A DNA stretch of 64,000 nucleotides. Origin: an archaeon. Lineage in GTDB: Archaea; Thermoproteota; Nitrososphaeria; Nitrososphaerales; Nitrosopumilaceae. Below, one piece after another: positions 44,666 to 52,133 of the stretch (positions within the stretch are counted from its first letter, which is position 1; each line of letters starts with the position of its first letter). Made by a program: the position numbers and the translations under genes. The DNA is taken from the NCBI GenBank assembly GCA_024276695.1, contig JAJRWR010000025.1, positions 1-64,000 of the forward strand, in the 5' to 3' direction. The notes below the pieces were generated by a model. That model saw only the letters and a list, made by a program, of their open reading frames with translations, was not told the DNA's origin and ran no database searches.

Positions 44666-45915
44666 ATGAAAAGTACACAACTTCTAAGTGTTGTTTTTTC
44701 ACTGATTATGTTTACTGGTGTAACTGCCGGTAGCGCAGCATTTGCGCAATCAGATGATGACAATTACAACCTTGATGACAGATTAGAGAATTTCTGTAGT
44801 ATGAGTATGAAGAAAAACGTCAATTCTATGCAGATCATCCAAGACTAGAACAATTCTCAGAGAGAATTGCAAACTATTGTGATTTATCTGAAGATGAAAG
44901 AGAAATTGCAATTGATGACTTTGTTGCAGACCATAGAGAAGAATTTAGAGTATCTCATGAAGGTGATATAAAAGACAAACTAACTCGTTATTGTGAAATG
45001 TCAGATGTTGACAAGAAAACATTCATCGCAGAACATGACAAAACAAAAGAACATGTCGAGAAGATGAACGAATATTGTTCATTAGATGAAGACGGTAGAA
45101 TGAATTTCATTGCAGAACACAGAGACAAGTTCAGAGTCAACATGAAAGACAAAATGATGGACAAACCACGTTTGAACTATGATAGACTATGTGCTTTATC
45201 TGAATCAGACAGAGCATTAGAAATTGATGATTCTGAAAAACTTGATAGAATCTCTGACTGGTGTGAAATGACATCTGAGGAAAGAAAGGAATACAAGATA
45301 AAGTACAAAGACGCTATGATGGACAGACCTCATGATTTTGATAGAATGTCTGATGTGGCAAAGGATAGAATGTCTAATATCGCAAAAGACAAACTAGCAA
45401 GTAAAATGAAAATCTCTGACATGTCTGACCGCCTACGTGCAATGATCACTGACAAACGTGACATTTCTGATGAGAGACGAGACGAAATCAAGATGAAATT
45501 CAAAGAAAAGCATGGTGATCTGACTGATAAAGCAAAGTCAGAACTCAAAATGAAGTTCAAAAATCACATGGCTACTATGAAAATTACCATGTCCGAAGAA
45601 CGTAGATCTCTAATTCATGACAGACTAGCAGAGATGAAGGCTTTCAAGGCAGATCTACGTGAGCGAGCATCTGGAATGACTGACGAGGAAAAACAGAACC
45701 TTAGAGAAGACTTTATCGCACATGCAAAAGACATGCGATTGGCATGGATTACTCCGCGCACTCAAATTACTGCCGGCGTTGATGCCGAAGATGTTGAATG
45801 TCGTAAAGGGTTCAGTCTTGTAATGAAAGCATCAAACGGTGTTCCAATGTGTCTCAAAGCAGATACTGCACTGAAGATGATAGATAGAGGGATCGTTATA
45901 GTTCCTACCAACTAA
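44666..45915 (+). pseudogene. Exported helical repeat protein with one-base frameshift
   Basis: The start encodes a signal peptide (MKSTQLLSVVFSLIMFTGVTAG, cut near AFA-QS). The frame is lost at about 44806; restoring one base there (CSMS-D-EEKRQFYADHP) joins it to the remaining frame ending 45915. The protein has six C-x-(LM)-(ST/D)-type repeats (CSMS, CDLS, CEMS, CSLD, CALS, CEMT) spaced mostly 30-40 residues apart, a basic helical region and the Cys motif VECRKGFSLVMKASNGVPMC. TATA box TTTATATG about 26 bases upstream. Confidence 0.75.
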
Positions 45916-46182: not shown

Positions 46183-47655
46183 TTAAGAAATTATAACAAT
46201 CCCTGAATTGTTAGGTATAATTTTGATCATTGAATGATTATCATATAATCCATGTTTTATTTCCAAATTGTTTTGTGTCTGACCATTAACTGTAACAACA
46301 GGAGTTTCAGGAAGTAAGTCAGTTGAAACATAGATGATTATTCGATATGTGCTATCAAAAGAAAATTGCATTGTTTTTGTTTCTTCGTTATAGATAAAAT
46401 TTGAAATTATTGCTGGACTGCGAAAGTCTACTATCCACTTGTTAGAATCATTTTCCTTTATCCATATTGGCTGAATAAGTTCTCTAACTCCTTTTGTAGG
46501 ATCATACACTTTGTACTCTTTTGCGTCATTGATTTCTCTTTCAAGTCCTCTAAAACAAAAATCCTTACCTTCATCATCCTGTATTAATTCACATAGTTTG
46601 CCTCCTTCATCCAAATCATGATCCGTATAGAATGCAATACTTAGACCGAGATTGTCACTACATGTTTGATAATCAAATATACGTAATTCAGATTTTAGAC
46701 AAATATTTGAAATATCTTTTTCAATGGATGTAGATGTAATTAATTTTCTATCCGTATATCCCATCATTACTCCCCCAACACAAATGGTTCCCTGATAAAA
46801 TGACATCTCATCACATGAGTTGATTGCAGGTTCTAACTTGTATTCAAAATAATGAATCAAACCATGACCTAATCCATGTACACATTTTGTATAATTTGGG
46901 CTTCCTATGAATACATTACAAACTGTTTTGTATGAAGAAATATCTTCATTGTTTTCTCGTAATTCATGAAAGAATGCCGCCATTGTTCCGTGATAGAAAC
47001 CTCCTCTGCAAATAGAGCCATCAATTCCATTTAATGTTTCAAAAATATCCCCGTTTTCATTAAATGAAGCACTTCCAATTTCATGAGATATGAAATGACA
47101 ATCATCTATTGCTCCTAGTTTTGTTAAAATTAAAGCAAGTTCAAGGACATCAGAATTATCGACAGTTTGATTAACAGTTTCTTCAAAAAACTTAGAGTAA
47201 CACAATAGTTTGGGAGTTCCAGCATCCATTAATGCACAATTTCCAATTTTTTGCATATTTTGAACTGTTAATTTTTCTGTAGCAAGTACTGGGACTGGAT
47301 CATTTGGATCTAAAATTCCATCATTATCATCATCGTTATCTTGGTTTGCACCTATTCCATCAAAATCAAAATCTGACCACTCCTCTGAATCATTATCAAA
47401 AGAATCTATCACATCTATCACACCATCATTATCATCATCTGAATCACAGGGATTCCCTAATGAATCACCATCAAAATCAGATTGATCGGAGTTGCTAATT
47501 TTTGGACAATTATCCACATTGTCTATAATACTGTCTTGATCACTATCAACTGCAGTTATTTTTACATCAGATTGTAATCCAAAAAATAATAAAATTCCCA
47601 AGACTGCAAATGCACCTAAAACCAAGATCCATCTTTTATCAAATTTGTTTTGCAA
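46183..47655 (-). CDS. Membrane-anchored protein with type-3 thrombospondin repeats and a His/Cys domain
   Basis: 490 residues. N-terminal anchor (WILVLGAFAVLGILLFFGL), then calcium-binding repeats (DSDQDSIIDNVDNCP, DFDGDSLGNPCDSDDDNDG, DFDFDGIGANQDNDDDNDG, about 37-110), then a domain of about 300 residues with regularly placed Cys and His: CHFISHEIG, CRGGFYHGTMAAFFHE, CVHGLGHGLIHYFE, CVGGVMMGY. The C-terminus is beta-rich. The His/Cys pattern suggests metal or heme binding, but no family was recognised. Starts TTG 47655 with a TATA-like GTATATC upstream. Confidence 0.75.
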   Translation of the reverse strand: MQNKFDKRWILVLGAFAVLGILLFFGLQSDVKITAVDSDQDSIIDNVDNCPKISNSDQSDFDGDSLGNPCDSDDDNDGVIDVIDSFDNDSEEWSDFDFDGIGANQDNDDDNDGILDPNDPVPVLATEKLTVQNMQKIGNCALMDAGTPKLLCYSKFFEETVNQTVDNSDVLELALILTKLGAIDDCHFISHEIGSASFNENGDIFETLNGIDGSICRGGFYHGTMAAFFHELRENNEDISSYKTVCNVFIGSPNYTKCVHGLGHGLIHYFEYKLEPAINSCDEMSFYQGTICVGGVMMGYTDRKLITSTSIEKDISNICLKSELRIFDYQTCSDNLGLSIAFYTDHDLDEGGKLCELIQDDEGKDFCFRGLEREINDAKEYKVYDPTKGVRELIQPIWIKENDSNKWIVDFRSPAIISNFIYNEETKTMQFSFDSTYRIIIYVSTDLLPETPVVTVNGQTQNNLEIKHGLYDNHSMIKIIPNNSGIVIIS

Positions 47656-47689: not shown

Positions 47690-47710
47690 TATGATACAAG
47701 ATTGAATTTG
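47690..47710 (+). promoter_or_regulatory. Regulon motif copy 1 (TATGATACAAG)
   Basis: TATGATACAAG, then ATTGAATTTG. It lies 35 bases before the start of the 46183-47655 gene (opposite strand) and about 190 bases before the regulator at 47899. One of five near-identical copies in 3.5 kb. Confidence 0.55.
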
Positions 47711-47803
47711 AGGTAGGAAGGATGAAAATATCCATATCGGACGTATCCAAAAATACAATATTTCCTAACCCTCTCTACCTTAGAGAATCTAGTTAAAACA
47801 TTG

Positions 47804-47824
47804 TATGATACAAGTCTCGATCTA
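47804..47824 (+). promoter_or_regulatory. Regulon motif copy 2 (TATGATACAAG)
   Basis: TATGATACAAG, then TCTCGATCTA. It lies 75 bases upstream of the regulator ATG at 47899, consistent with autoregulation by that winged-helix protein. Confidence 0.55.
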
Positions 47825-47898
47825 GGAAAAGAAGTTTTAGCAAAGAACTGTAATAATTTGTAGAATAGGTTAAATCAGTGATTTTGGTAACTATAATC

Positions 47899-48411
47899 AT
47901 GAGTGAGGTTTTAGAATCGCCCAAGGTAAGAATTTTGGATTTTGTTATGAATAATCCTAGCTCTCATCTCAGAAAAATTAAAAATAATCTAGGGGTTTCC
48001 ATGGTAACTGTACAATATTATCTTGCCATGCTTGAAAGCGAAGGGAAAATCAAGTCAGTCAAGACAAAATTTTACAAAAATTATTACCACATTAACGAGT
48101 CTGATGATAAAATCCTCTCAGTGTTAAATTTAGATTCTCCACGTAACATTGTCATGTATTTGATTCAGCATGAACCTGCCACACATCAAGAAATATCAAA
48201 GGGAATTGGTTTGTCATCATCTACAATTAATTGGCATATGAAGAGACTAATAGAATTACAAATTGTAGATACAGAGTATTCTGGAAAATATACAGTCTAT
48301 CGTCTTAATGACAGAGACAATGTAATGAATAATCTTAAAAAATGTAAATCAACAACATGGAGTTCCATGGTAAACAACATGGCAGACGTATTTTCAGCAT
48401 TTAATGAATAA
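47899..48411 (+). CDS. Two-domain winged-helix transcriptional regulator
   Basis: 170 residues. Two winged-helix domains in tandem: LESPKVRILDFVMNNPSSHL then KIKNNLGVSMVTVQYYLAML (first), and TINWHMKRLIELQIVDTEYS (second recognition helix). I place the start at ATG 47899, not GTG 47878, because the TATA-like GGTTAAATC near 47869 is 27 bases upstream. The motif copies at 47690 and 47804 lie in its upstream region. The following gene is a three-helix membrane protein. Probably the local regulator of the exported-protein cluster (inference). Confidence 0.85.
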   Translation: MSEVLESPKVRILDFVMNNPSSHLRKIKNNLGVSMVTVQYYLAMLESEGKIKSVKTKFYKNYYHINESDDKILSVLNLDSPRNIVMYLIQHEPATHQEISKGIGLSSSTINWHMKRLIELQIVDTEYSGKYTVYRLNDRDNVMNNLKKCKSTTWSSMVNNMADVFSAFNE

Positions 48412-48430: not shown

Positions 48431-48808
48431 ATGTTAAATTCACAATTATCTGCCCTATCAAAGATTTCATTACAACTTGATTATCTCAACCCGTTTGATG
48501 ATCCACTAGATGTTGTAACACAAGACGACATTATTTCAGGTTCAGTTGCAATAGCTATCGCAGGTTTTTCGATAGTTCTAACTATAATGGCAATAACTGC
48601 TTACAGAAAGACAGGGATTTCACAACTCAAGTATATCGCAATGGCATTTTCATTATTTACAATATATTTAGGAATTGAAGCATTGCAAGAACTGTTACCA
48701 CTTAATGACGACTCTTTTGATTTGTTTTTATCAGCAATCATGCTCGGTATTTTGATTAGTTTCTTTTTAGGAGTTATGAGAAAAAAGAAAAATCATATAG
48801 AAACATAG
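48431..48808 (+). CDS. Three-helix membrane protein partnered with the regulator
   Basis: 125 residues with an N-terminal polar segment (about 1-35), then helices at about 38-58, 66-88 and 96-116 and a basic end (MRKKKNHIET). It starts 19 bases after the regulator stop, same strand, mirroring the regulator/membrane pair at 15.8-16.4 kb. Possible signal-sensing partner. No named family. Confidence 0.75.
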   Translation: MLNSQLSALSKISLQLDYLNPFDDPLDVVTQDDIISGSVAIAIAGFSIVLTIMAITAYRKTGISQLKYIAMAFSLFTIYLGIEALQELLPLNDDSFDLFLSAIMLGILISFFLGVMRKKKNHIET

Positions 48809-48811
48809 TCA

Positions 48812-49003
48812 TTATTTTAATTTGATTTTTGGGCTTGATCTGAGTGCAATGTTACAGCAAGGACATCTAAAATTATCTGTTTTCAAATAAGTACAACAGC
48901 ATGAACACCATTTGAAACCATTTTCATAACTTAGTTTGTTGGAGTATCCATCAAGTTTAAAATTACTGCATTTGTTATTACACATAAATGCCAATCTTTT
49001 CAA
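48812..49003 (-). CDS. Cys-rich zinc-ribbon protein (CPCC-type)
   Basis: 63 residues. CNNKCSNF, CSCCCTYL and CPCCNIALRSSPK form two CxxC-type sites. It shares the layout C...KxC..C...CPCC...LR..PK with the protein at 62634-62858, so they are members of one small family. ATG at 49003. The third motif copy lies 25 bases upstream. It converges on the membrane protein gene with three bases between stops. Confidence 0.75.
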   Translation of the reverse strand: MKRLAFMCNNKCSNFKLDGYSNKLSYENGFKWCSCCCTYLKTDNFRCPCCNIALRSSPKIKLK

Positions 49004-49027: not shown

Positions 49028-49048
49028 TATGATACAAGATTGAATTTG
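49028..49048 (+). promoter_or_regulatory. Regulon motif copy 3 (TATGATACAAG)
   Basis: TATGATACAAG, then ATTGAATTTG, identical to copy 1 over 21 bases. It lies 25 bases upstream of the zinc-ribbon gene that starts at 49003 and runs the other way. Confidence 0.55.
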
Positions 49049-49083
49049 TGTTATTAAAAAGAAACGCCTAATAATTTTATCTC

Positions 49084-50013
49084 TTAAAAGATACTGCCCC
49101 AACCACGTGCAATTAATTTCTCAACAGAATCAAAAGTCACACATGCAGCTGATCTGTCAGAGTTTTTCATTAAGAGTTCAAATCCTTGACGACAAATAAC
49201 ATCAGGTAACTTTACACCCTGTTCTATCTGGGCTTTTGGAGATACTCCTTTTTTGACATCACGTTCATTTGAAATAAGAAAAGTTATTGTTTCCAAAACA
49301 GGTTTTTCAGATTCAGAAATCAAATATATTCCTCGGATTCCAATGGTCACCTCAACAGGATTATCAGATTCTAAGGATTTTATGTTTAGTTCTTGGTGAC
49401 CATCGACTGAATGAACATTTTCACGGAATAGTATTTCTTCGTTGTCTTGAGTCATTCTAATGTCATAGTTGAAGTGAACTAGAATAGCATTTTTTTCATC
49501 AGTGAATCTTAGTTCTATTTCAAGTGGATTTCCAGCTTTAATAAAATCAGTACTAATGGTACCAATTACTGAACCTGATTCAGAAAGTGCCATTTGCTCA
49601 ATTTCATGTAATGCAAGTGATTGTTGAAGAAGAGGTTTTGCAATTATTACTCCCTCCATCCATGGATGAAGAGTGCAATAGTATGGAAATGCACCTGATT
49701 CATCAAAACTAAAAGCAAAGACTTCTCCTGATTGCAGTACATCGCTATAGATAATTCCATCTGGACCCTCTTCAGGAGAGCCACTTGTAACAGTATGAGG
49801 TGCAGAGTCATTGTTTATCCATTCAACTACATCAGTCACATTAACAAAAATTGGATTTGGAATGTAACACAAATCTCTTATTTCACATCCCAAAACAGAT
49901 GTTCCTTGTGGGATACTAATCTTAATTGATTCTTCTGCTGCAATAGAATCCTTCATTGTAGAAAATAAAATTATGCCAACAATTACAAAAATTACAACAA
50001 ATCTTAATTCCAT
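49084..50013 (-). CDS. Exported cupredoxin-like protein with C-terminal Cys motif
   Basis: 309 residues. A signal peptide (VVIFVIVGIILFSTMKDSIA) is followed by a plastocyanin-type copper domain: APHTVTSGS (His), SFDESGAFPYYC (Cys), TLHPWMEGV (His and Met), all four type-1 copper ligands in order. A beta-rich region follows and then VICRQGFELLMKNSDRSAAC, the Cys motif shared with the exported proteins at 25843 and 44666. A copper protein fits ammonia-oxidiser electron transport. The upstream gap holds motif copy 4. Confidence 0.88.
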   Translation of the reverse strand: MELRFVVIFVIVGIILFSTMKDSIAAEESIKISIPQGTSVLGCEIRDLCYIPNPIFVNVTDVVEWINNDSAPHTVTSGSPEEGPDGIIYSDVLQSGEVFAFSFDESGAFPYYCTLHPWMEGVIIAKPLLQQSLALHEIEQMALSESGSVIGTISTDFIKAGNPLEIELRFTDEKNAILVHFNYDIRMTQDNEEILFRENVHSVDGHQELNIKSLESDNPVEVTIGIRGIYLISESEKPVLETITFLISNERDVKKGVSPKAQIEQGVKLPDVICRQGFELLMKNSDRSAACVTFDSVEKLIARGWGSIF

Positions 50014-50120: not shown

Positions 50121-50141
50121 TATGATACAAGCTTCGATTTG
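50121..50141 (+). promoter_or_regulatory. Regulon motif copy 4 (TATGATACAAG)
   Basis: TATGATACAAG, then CTTCGATTTG, between the divergent cupredoxin gene (start 50013) and the exported coiled-coil gene (start 50229). 88 bases upstream of the latter. Confidence 0.55.
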
Positions 50142-50228
50142 ATTTGTTCAGAATTAGTTTTATTGTGGATTAAGGTTGCTATTTTGTTCTGATTAATTAC
50201 TAAATAAAAAAATGAGAAATCATGTTTA

Positions 50229-50861
50229 ATGACTAGAAATAAATCAAAACATGCAATCTATAGTATGATATTTGGAATCATGTTGTTATCAACTGTTTCA
50301 GTAAATGGATCTGTTCAAGCATTTGCACAGACAAATTCAGATAATGGATTTACAGTAAGAAGCCCTGAACAAATTAACAAAGATCCTGTAGCAAAATCAA
50401 TACTTGAAAAAATAAAACAGATGAAAAAGAGAATGACTGAAATCAAAGATGAAAAGAAAAAACAGCAAGAACATCAAAAATTTATTGATCAACAAAGAAT
50501 CATTGCAAAGCAAGAACTAAACAAAGAACTTGATAGGATGAATAACAAAAACAAGGATCATACACCAAAATCTTCCTTTACAAGTTTTGTATCCTCAAAA
50601 CCTGCTGATACACAGAAGGTATACTGGGATATGTTCAACTTCCAACAACAAAAGGTATCCGAGGCACGAAAAGCAATGAAAACAGTTCTAGATAATGGCG
50701 GTTCACTCCAAGAAGCAAGAGAGGCATATCACAATGCAGGTGCTATCAAAAGAGTGCAACTAATTGACATTACAAAAGACCTCAACATCAAACATGGATT
50801 AGCAGACAACACAGTTCAATCTACCTTTGACAAGAATGGAAAACTGCCAAGGTATGATTAA
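50229..50861 (+). CDS. Exported coiled-coil protein, paralogue A
   Basis: 210 residues. Signal peptide (about 1-38, ending QAFA-QT), a charged coiled coil (about 60-115), then a conserved C-terminal domain: HTPKSSFTSFVSSKP...VYWDMFNFQQ...LDITKDLNIKHGLADN-type segment (IDITKDLNIKHGLADN) and the end FDKNGKLPRYD. The C-terminal domain is shared with the 51240 gene, in the same order. No known family. Motif copy 4 is upstream. Confidence 0.75.
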   Translation: MTRNKSKHAIYSMIFGIMLLSTVSVNGSVQAFAQTNSDNGFTVRSPEQINKDPVAKSILEKIKQMKKRMTEIKDEKKKQQEHQKFIDQQRIIAKQELNKELDRMNNKNKDHTPKSSFTSFVSSKPADTQKVYWDMFNFQQQKVSEARKAMKTVLDNGGSLQEAREAYHNAGAIKRVQLIDITKDLNIKHGLADNTVQSTFDKNGKLPRYD

Positions 50862-50878
50862 CTAATCTCTTTTTTTAA
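50862..50878 (+). terminator. T-rich tract after paralogue A
   Basis: CTAATCTCTTTTTTTAA follows the stop codon directly; a T7 run is consistent with archaeal termination. Confidence 0.35.
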
Positions 50879-50936
50879 TAAATACTCAATTAAACTCTAA
50901 AAATTTTGTGTATTAAAAAAATATAATCATTTTTTA

Positions 50937-51074
50937 TTAAAGACGATCTAATCCTTTTGCCTTTCTCCATTGTTTCTCCATTTGTTGCTTACAAGATTCG
51001 TGACATCTTTTTCCATTAATTTCTGCAAGTCCATCAGAAATATTCATTTCATTTTTACAAATACTACAAATCAA
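50937..51074 (-). CDS. Small LIM-like zinc-finger protein, 45 aa
   Basis: Minus strand from TTG 51074: after the start residue ICSICKNEMNISDG, then NGKRCHESCKQQMEKQW and a basic end. CSIC plus CHESC makes one complete zinc site. GGAGATT lies eight bases before the TTG as a ribosome binding site, which supports this unusual start. Divergent from paralogue B with motif copy 5 between. Confidence 0.65.
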   Translation of the reverse strand: MICSICKNEMNISDGLAEINGKRCHESCKQQMEKQWRKAKGLDRL

Positions 51075-51144
51075 TTGTTAATCTCCATTTTTTACTCATC
51101 ACTTCAACTGATCAATTTACTTTTGATTTATGACTAATATATCA

Positions 51145-51165
51145 TATGATACAACTATCGATCCG
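51145..51165 (+). promoter_or_regulatory. Regulon motif copy 5 (TATGATACAAC)
   Basis: TATGATACAAC, then TATCGATCCG; it differs from the others at the last base of the core. 75 bases upstream of the paralogue B ATG, the same distance as copy 2 from the regulator. Confidence 0.5.
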
Positions 51166-51239
51166 ACTCTACAAATTTCAAATGTATTGATCATTTTTTT
51201 GAATATTGAAGATTAACTCTGTTTTTTGTAAACGATTTC

Positions 51240-52133
51240 ATGTTAAAAATAATATCTACAATATTACTCTCGTGTCTAATGGGGGCTTTACTTGTCAATC
51301 CAGTATGGGCTGAAGAAGATTTTACATTTTCAATCAACGCTCCATCTAAATTTGAGGTAAGTCAATTCCCAGTCATACATGGCAAAACAATTACTTTGAA
51401 TAATAATCCCGTTTCAGATGTAAAAATTCAAGTTAATTTCCCCTCAGGGGCTATAACAACTTTGACTAATTCTACAGGTCAGTTTTCAGTTACGTCCCCA
51501 GTATCTGCAGATATTGGAGAATATACCATTACAGTTTATGCAAAAAAAGATAACAAAGTTGCAAATACTCAGATTACATATCAAGTAACAGAGAATAAAC
51601 TAACAATAGTAAAAGAAACACCAAACTCATTAGAAGAAACTTTGAAAACTGACAAGAATATAGAATTAGATCCATTTTCAAAGATGATCAAACAGCTTGA
51701 AGAGGAAAAATTACAAGTAGAGACAAGAAAAATACTTGTAAAAGAACAACAACAAGTTGAGGAACAAAGATTACTGGCAGAAGCAGATCTACAAAAGGAC
51801 TTGAAAGAGGCTGAAAAAAGAAATGAATTCTACAGTCCAAGAAATGCATTTTATAGATTCATACAAGATGTGGACAGTTCAGTTAGAGGAATATTTTGGC
51901 AACAGTTCTTGTTTACAGAAAAAATAACAAAACAGGCACTTGAAGCCAAAGAAAATGCATTAGAGGAAGGGAAATCAACATTTGAGGCAACAAAAATATT
52001 CCAAAAAGAGGCAGCAGTAACACAAAAAGAAGTCATGGACTTTAACAAGAATTTGAATGTGAATTATGGGAATGCAACATCTGACATTCAAGAACAGTTT
52101 GATGAGAACGGCAAACTCCCAAGAGAAGAATAA
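51240..52133 (+). CDS. Exported protein with carboxypeptidase-regulatory-like domain, paralogue B
   Basis: 297 residues. Signal peptide (MLKIISTILLSCLMGALLVN, cut near VWA-EE), a beta-sandwich like those of carboxypeptidase-regulatory or Ig folds (PVSDVKIQVNFPSGAITTL, about 30-115), a coiled coil (about 150-195) and the same C-terminal domain as paralogue A: FYSPRNAFYRFI, IFWQQFLF, NKNLNVNYGNATSD and FDENGKLPREE. So B is A plus an extra domain. Motif copy 5 is upstream. Confidence 0.78.
   Translation: MLKIISTILLSCLMGALLVNPVWAEEDFTFSINAPSKFEVSQFPVIHGKTITLNNNPVSDVKIQVNFPSGAITTLTNSTGQFSVTSPVSADIGEYTITVYAKKDNKVANTQITYQVTENKLTIVKETPNSLEETLKTDKNIELDPFSKMIKQLEEEKLQVETRKILVKEQQQVEEQRLLAEADLQKDLKEAEKRNEFYSPRNAFYRFIQDVDSSVRGIFWQQFLFTEKITKQALEAKENALEEGKSTFEATKIFQKEAAVTQKEVMDFNKNLNVNYGNATSDIQEQFDENGKLPREE

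Follow-up and report, generated by a model that had tools for sequence, protein, structure and literature searches.

Two neighbouring genes of an ammonia-oxidising marine archaeon, which we have designated A and B, encode exported proteins that share a real, so far undescribed and mostly helical domain, restricted to the Nitrosopumilaceae among the genomes sampled. They were found in a 64,000-nucleotide stretch of DNA (the window), where they lie in a local regulatory island that is the most informative part of the analysis. It is about as likely as not that A and B, exported by the Sec route, serve as structural or binding modules at the archaeal cell surface and are co-expressed under an autoregulated switch; this reading draws on homology, distribution, export signals, architectures, the conserved motif and the co-occurrence with the regulator R. 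The source genome is 1.56 Mb in size and its nearest named relatives are Nitrosopumilus. Few cells in the ocean are more abundant than the Nitrosopumilaceae, whose exported proteins are poorly known. The coordinates of the genes, domains and putative regulatory sites are given in Table 1.

Table 1. Genes, domains and putative regulatory sites of the island encoding A and B; positions are those of the window.
Feature	Coordinates	Strand	Remarks
T	46183..47655	-	Exported, 490 aa; thrombospondin-3-like repeat and Cys/His-rich region; divergent from R
Second R/T intergenic site	47690..47711	+	Precedes the T start by 35 nt (T on the other strand); motif count, relatives' promoters, matrix
Putative operator upstream of R	47804..47825	+	In the divergent R/T intergenic region; motif count, relatives' promoters, matrix
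Regulator R	47878..48411	+	Two winged helix-turn-helix domains; Pfam HTH_24, HTH_HVO_0163_N
Membrane protein M	48431..48808	+	125 aa; begins 19 nt past the end of R; DUF7521 match weak and under cut-off
Small zinc-ribbon-like protein	48812..49003	-	Conserved in the island
Zinc-ribbon site	49028..49049	+	25 nt before the minus-strand ORF 48812-49003, which it probably serves; motif count, matrix
Putative operator upstream of A, TATGATACAAGCTTCGATTTGA	50121..50142	+	Motif count, relatives' promoters, matrix
Gene A	50229..50861	+	210 aa, basic; signal peptide and domain; ORF intact, signal segment; orthologues 71-86% identity
Domain in A (residues 47-208)	50367..50852	+	Profile match; all-helical in AlphaFold
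Putative operator upstream of B, TATGATACAACTATCGATCCGA	51145..51166	+	Lowest matrix score of the five
Gene B	51240..52133	+	297 aa; ORF intact; signal peptide, Ig-like domain, shared domain (neutral to acidic); orthologues 61-82% identity
Ig-like beta-sandwich of B (~residues 28-117)	51321..51590	+	Weak Pfam matches, AlphaFold, Foldseek
Domain in B (residues 140-295)	51657..52124	+	Profile match; AlphaFold helices

A single BLASTP comparison of A and B showed 47 of 167 residues to be identical (28%, 91.7 bits, E=8e-27), and the alignment was collinear over approximately 165 residues. Together with profile matches across the Nitrosopumilaceae, this rules out a chance resemblance and supports the original prediction that the two proteins are paralogous; every conserved block that it named was present in the alignment. 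It had placed the shared region at about 100 residues aligned in order. The order held, but the length did not, as the similarity opens at a DP-x2-K helix some 60 residues further upstream and the domain is approximately 162 aa long. In both proteins the only hydrophobic stretch is a signal segment at the N-terminus, which agreed with their predicted export. In a tree of the domain family A grouped with short forms, adjoining a clade of proteins that also contain the WING-49 domain, and B grouped with other Ig-type proteins. As these clades are separate and supported, A and B are members of two old subfamilies, and a recent tandem duplication giving rise to both is ruled out. The two domains also differ in charge, that of A being basic (+6 to +12 in 6/6 orthologues) and that of B neutral to acidic (0 to -6 in 10/10).

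Searches of Pfam and NCBIfam with A and B revealed no family at cut-off over the shared domain, and among 21 diverse members no two matched the same Pfam family. PHROG yielded nothing for the domain of A or B and one weak match to another member. A profile search of PDB sequences with the domain matched no chain (best E=0.053), and a search of PDB folds with the model of A, a model of moderate confidence, returned none at 0.001 (best E=1.7). These searches rule out a known domain and bear out the statement that it matches nothing known; no well-characterised family was found. A search of the available literature found no description of the domain or of WING-49. AlphaFold placed only helices over the domain in both proteins, at residues 53-107, 113-122, 126-155, 160-171 and 175-188 of A and at residues 145-197, 200-209, 213-242, 247-258 and 262-276 of B, the first helix being 53-55 residues long. 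These models were built on 11 sequences and their confidence is modest (mean pLDDT 69-70, pTM 0.33-0.41), so that a new fold is a possibility suggested by the models and no firm fold is claimed. Seven residues (R, L, F, A, Q, F, G) were invariant in the 21 diverse members. His, Cys, Asp, Glu and Ser are absent from this set, so no catalytic or metal-binding set is evident.

The domain is widespread within the family Nitrosopumilaceae. With the domain of B alone as the query, 108 of 151 Nitrosopumilaceae genomes, representing 15 of 22 genera, gave a match. A profile of 21 members was also run against a sample of 398 genomes of the phylum, from the list of which 63 Nitrosopumilaceae and 335 other genomes were counted; it matched 53/63 of the former, with several copies per genome, and 0/335 of the latter, one stop-interrupted fragment (E=2e-4) excepted. 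Within this phylum sample, and with that fragment apart, the taxonomic range is therefore Nitrosopumilaceae only. No relative was present in 50,697 phage records or among the close matches in viral contigs, and a virus- or phage-borne domain was rejected on these collections. Stop-interrupted copies of the domain at G149:C44:16389-16538 and G041:C106:7351-7770 are probable pseudogenes.

A survey of 102 distinct sequences showed that the domain, originally described as C-terminal, is a mobile module. It occurs in short proteins made of a signal and the domain, like A (stand-alone forms, 22/102), and following an Ig domain, like B. It was also found ahead of a tail with CxxC, ahead of WING-49 (confirmed in L043 and L046), and inside proteins of 800-1200 aa with Ig-type domains (Ig/Big/MG2). 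A divergent Ig-containing subfamily of approximately 300-400 aa was present in most sampled Nitrosopumilaceae genomes, the source genome included (G000:C38:52040-52444). Two tandem members of the WING-49-type architecture class were observed at L114 5812-9161 (G468). With several copies in most sampled Nitrosopumilaceae, at least five architectures and a near-universal divergent subfamily, the domain merits naming and structure determination.

B had been predicted to contain an additional Ig-like domain. The predicted fold of its N-terminal half does match Ig-type sandwiches, with 55 PDB matches at E<=0.001 when the AlphaFold model was searched with Foldseek, including CARDB, PKD and macroglobulin domains; no sequence profile exceeded its curated cut-off, however, the CarboxypepD_reg/Big_1 matches scoring 20.5 bits vs 32.3.

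The gene order T, R, M, zinc ribbon, A, B was retained in L003-L006 and L116-L118, with single genes missing in some. Comparison with orthologues indicated that the ATG at 47899 is the more likely start of R. T is kept beside the regulator, and its Cys/His-rich region (CRGGFYHG, CVHGLGHG) had no Pfam match. A variable slot in the island is occupied here by a cupredoxin with a C-terminal WING-49 domain (49,084-50,013, minus strand) and in other Nitrosopumilus genomes by a WING-49/MG2 surface protein. A helical Asp/Lys-rich protein with a weak DUF3106 match, its C-terminus WING-49-like by eye, is encoded at 44,998-45,915 on the plus strand. The small zinc-finger gene reported between A and B exists as a minus-strand ORF of 45 aa with CxxC..HxxxC (50,937-51,074), but it is not conserved: among the loci compared it was seen in the source genome only. 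As L002, L004 and L006 have no such ORF between A and B, the zinc finger is ruled out as a part of the A/B unit.

Analysis of the sequence upstream of A and B confirmed the motif reported there and extended it to approximately 22 bp. The core, TATGATACAA, has seven copies in the window against 0.49 expected, five of them between 47,690 bp and 51,154 bp; of its 21 copies in the genome these five are packed into the 3.5 kb of the island, and they alone have the extended form close to TGATACAANNNTNRATYYGA, with its longer tail. This confinement of the tail to the island rules out a general promoter element, and the copies at 12,062 bp and 63,107 bp were treated as chance occurrences because the tail is missing. 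The extended motif was retained in the orthologous promoters of A, R and T and more loosely in that of B. When the window was scored with a matrix trained only on the relatives' A, R and T sites, the top five places went to the five island sites, and four exceeded all of 15 null maxima; the B site, at 13.4, fell below the best of these (16.2) and is therefore not significant alone. The region between the divergent T and R genes holds two sites, an arrangement that would suit autoregulation. As in a regulon, a shared site was found upstream of island genes and conserved between species, the B site being the weaker one. The shared regulation is well supported, and the conserved operator defines a regulon open to testing, something seldom available in these archaea.

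Close, full-length orthologues of B (E below 1e-100) were present in 11 of 95 genomes of the genus and close orthologues of R (E below 1e-80) in 12. R was present in all 11 genomes bearing B and lay no more than 3.3 kb from it in 10, so that the suspected linkage of the domain genes with the regulator was supported, as it was by the retained gene order. The probability of this co-occurrence by chance is approximately 1.5e-13 if kinship is ignored, a value that is too small as the genomes are related. In G143 (L002), A and B lacked an adjacent R, which was on another contig. Outside this clade the domain genes were scattered and without R. From this linkage and co-occurrence, R would be the protein that binds the ~22-bp motif.

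Taken together, A and B may sit at the Nitrosopumilus cell surface or in its pseudo-periplasm, each built on one lineage-specific helical module. In the module, a compact helical bundle with an aromatic core would follow a long N-terminal helix and end in FDxxGK, often continued by LPR; its most likely use would be in non-enzymatic binding or packing. The partner domains Ig/Big/MG2 and WING-49 are typical of extracellular proteins. A structural or binding role is favoured by these partners, by the helical build and by the lack of invariant catalytic or metal residues, the structural role being argued from the absence of catalytic signatures. B would present its Ig-like domain on the helical module, and A would be a stand-alone basic version. 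The basic charge of the A domain, with that of B neutral to acidic, suggests that A may dock on acidic partners, either B or an acidic S-layer; PMC6790972, citing Li et al. 2018, reports that the S-layer of these archaea is strongly acidic. In this clade the pair would be expressed together with T, the surface protein encoded divergently from R, as part of an accessory island under the double winged-helix R. R would act through the conserved ~22-bp operator that precedes R/T, A and B, and may be informed by M as a sensor. A more far-reaching version, which we regard as rather unlikely, is that the domain adopts a new fold and serves as a Nitrosopumilaceae-specific building block of the envelope, that basic A and acidic B assemble together or with the S-layer, and that R, M, T, A and B form a switch that remodels the surface in some Nitrosopumilus lineages.

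It is unlikely that the domain is instead a pseudo-periplasmic holdase-type chaperone resembling Spy, CpxP or Skp and induced by envelope stress, with R and M as the stress switch. An all-helical, exported domain whose first helix is long and which is basic in A, under its own regulator and with an adjacent membrane protein, would fit such a chaperone, as would the frequency of the stand-alone short forms. However, nothing resembling Spy, CpxP or Skp in sequence or fold was found: neither the Pfam search of A, B and the 21 diverse members nor the PDB-fold search revealed a Spy/CpxP family profile or cradle fold, and the fusions to Ig repeats and WING-49 in proteins of 430-1200 aa are easier to reconcile with display or assembly than with a chaperone in solution.

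A role for the domain in adhesion or particle contact, under selection within an accessory and habitat-linked island, also appears improbable. The Ig fusions, the many paralogues, the presence of the domain in multi-repeat Ig proteins and the accessory nature of the A/B island (11/95 genomes) are in keeping with this, but the domain has no carbohydrate- or surface-binding signature. Moreover, the existence of a near-universal subfamily makes contact with specific surfaces unlikely as a general role of the domain.

The proteins had further been said to end in NGKLPR. A GKLPR-like end is indeed common, being found in 17/20 short, 22/23 CxxC and 15/27 Ig-type members, but it is not family-wide, as 0/28 members of the other three classes had it; common yet not universal, it is no sorting tag. 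The motif stood at the extreme C-terminus in 15/20 short and 12/27 Ig-type members, but a C-terminal sorting or anchoring signal FDxNGKLPR, read by a surface-processing enzyme, is highly unlikely and largely ruled out by the motif's position, since approximately 74-111 residues follow the domain in 23/23 CxxC-tail members, the motif is missing from the WING-49 and long Ig members (approximately 110-460 residues after the domain) and from the near-universal subfamily, and neither a hydrophobic helix nor a basic tail follows it.

Comparison of the structural or binding modules proposed here with known systems shows partial likenesses. Small, exported, helical and regulator-linked proteins include, by analogy, those of the Spy/CpxP type, to which the present domain showed no match in sequence or fold. 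CarboxypepD_reg, Big_1 and MG2 (PF13620, PF02369, PF01835) account for the N-terminal half of B and for the repeats of the long members; they are beta-sandwiches, and the shared helical domain is not covered by them. R resembles archaeal helix-turn-helix regulators of the HVO_0163_N type with a DUF7521-like membrane neighbour, its HTH_HVO_0163_N match being over the cut-off whereas the DUF7521 match of M is below it; to our knowledge, no operator with exported target genes like these has been described for this family. WING-49 (NCBIfam NF058652) is a 49-residue model of other sequence, with no similarity to the present domain; it likewise forms a small part of proteins exported by this archaeon, the cupredoxin of the variable slot carrying it, and in L043 and L046 it is fused to the present domain itself.
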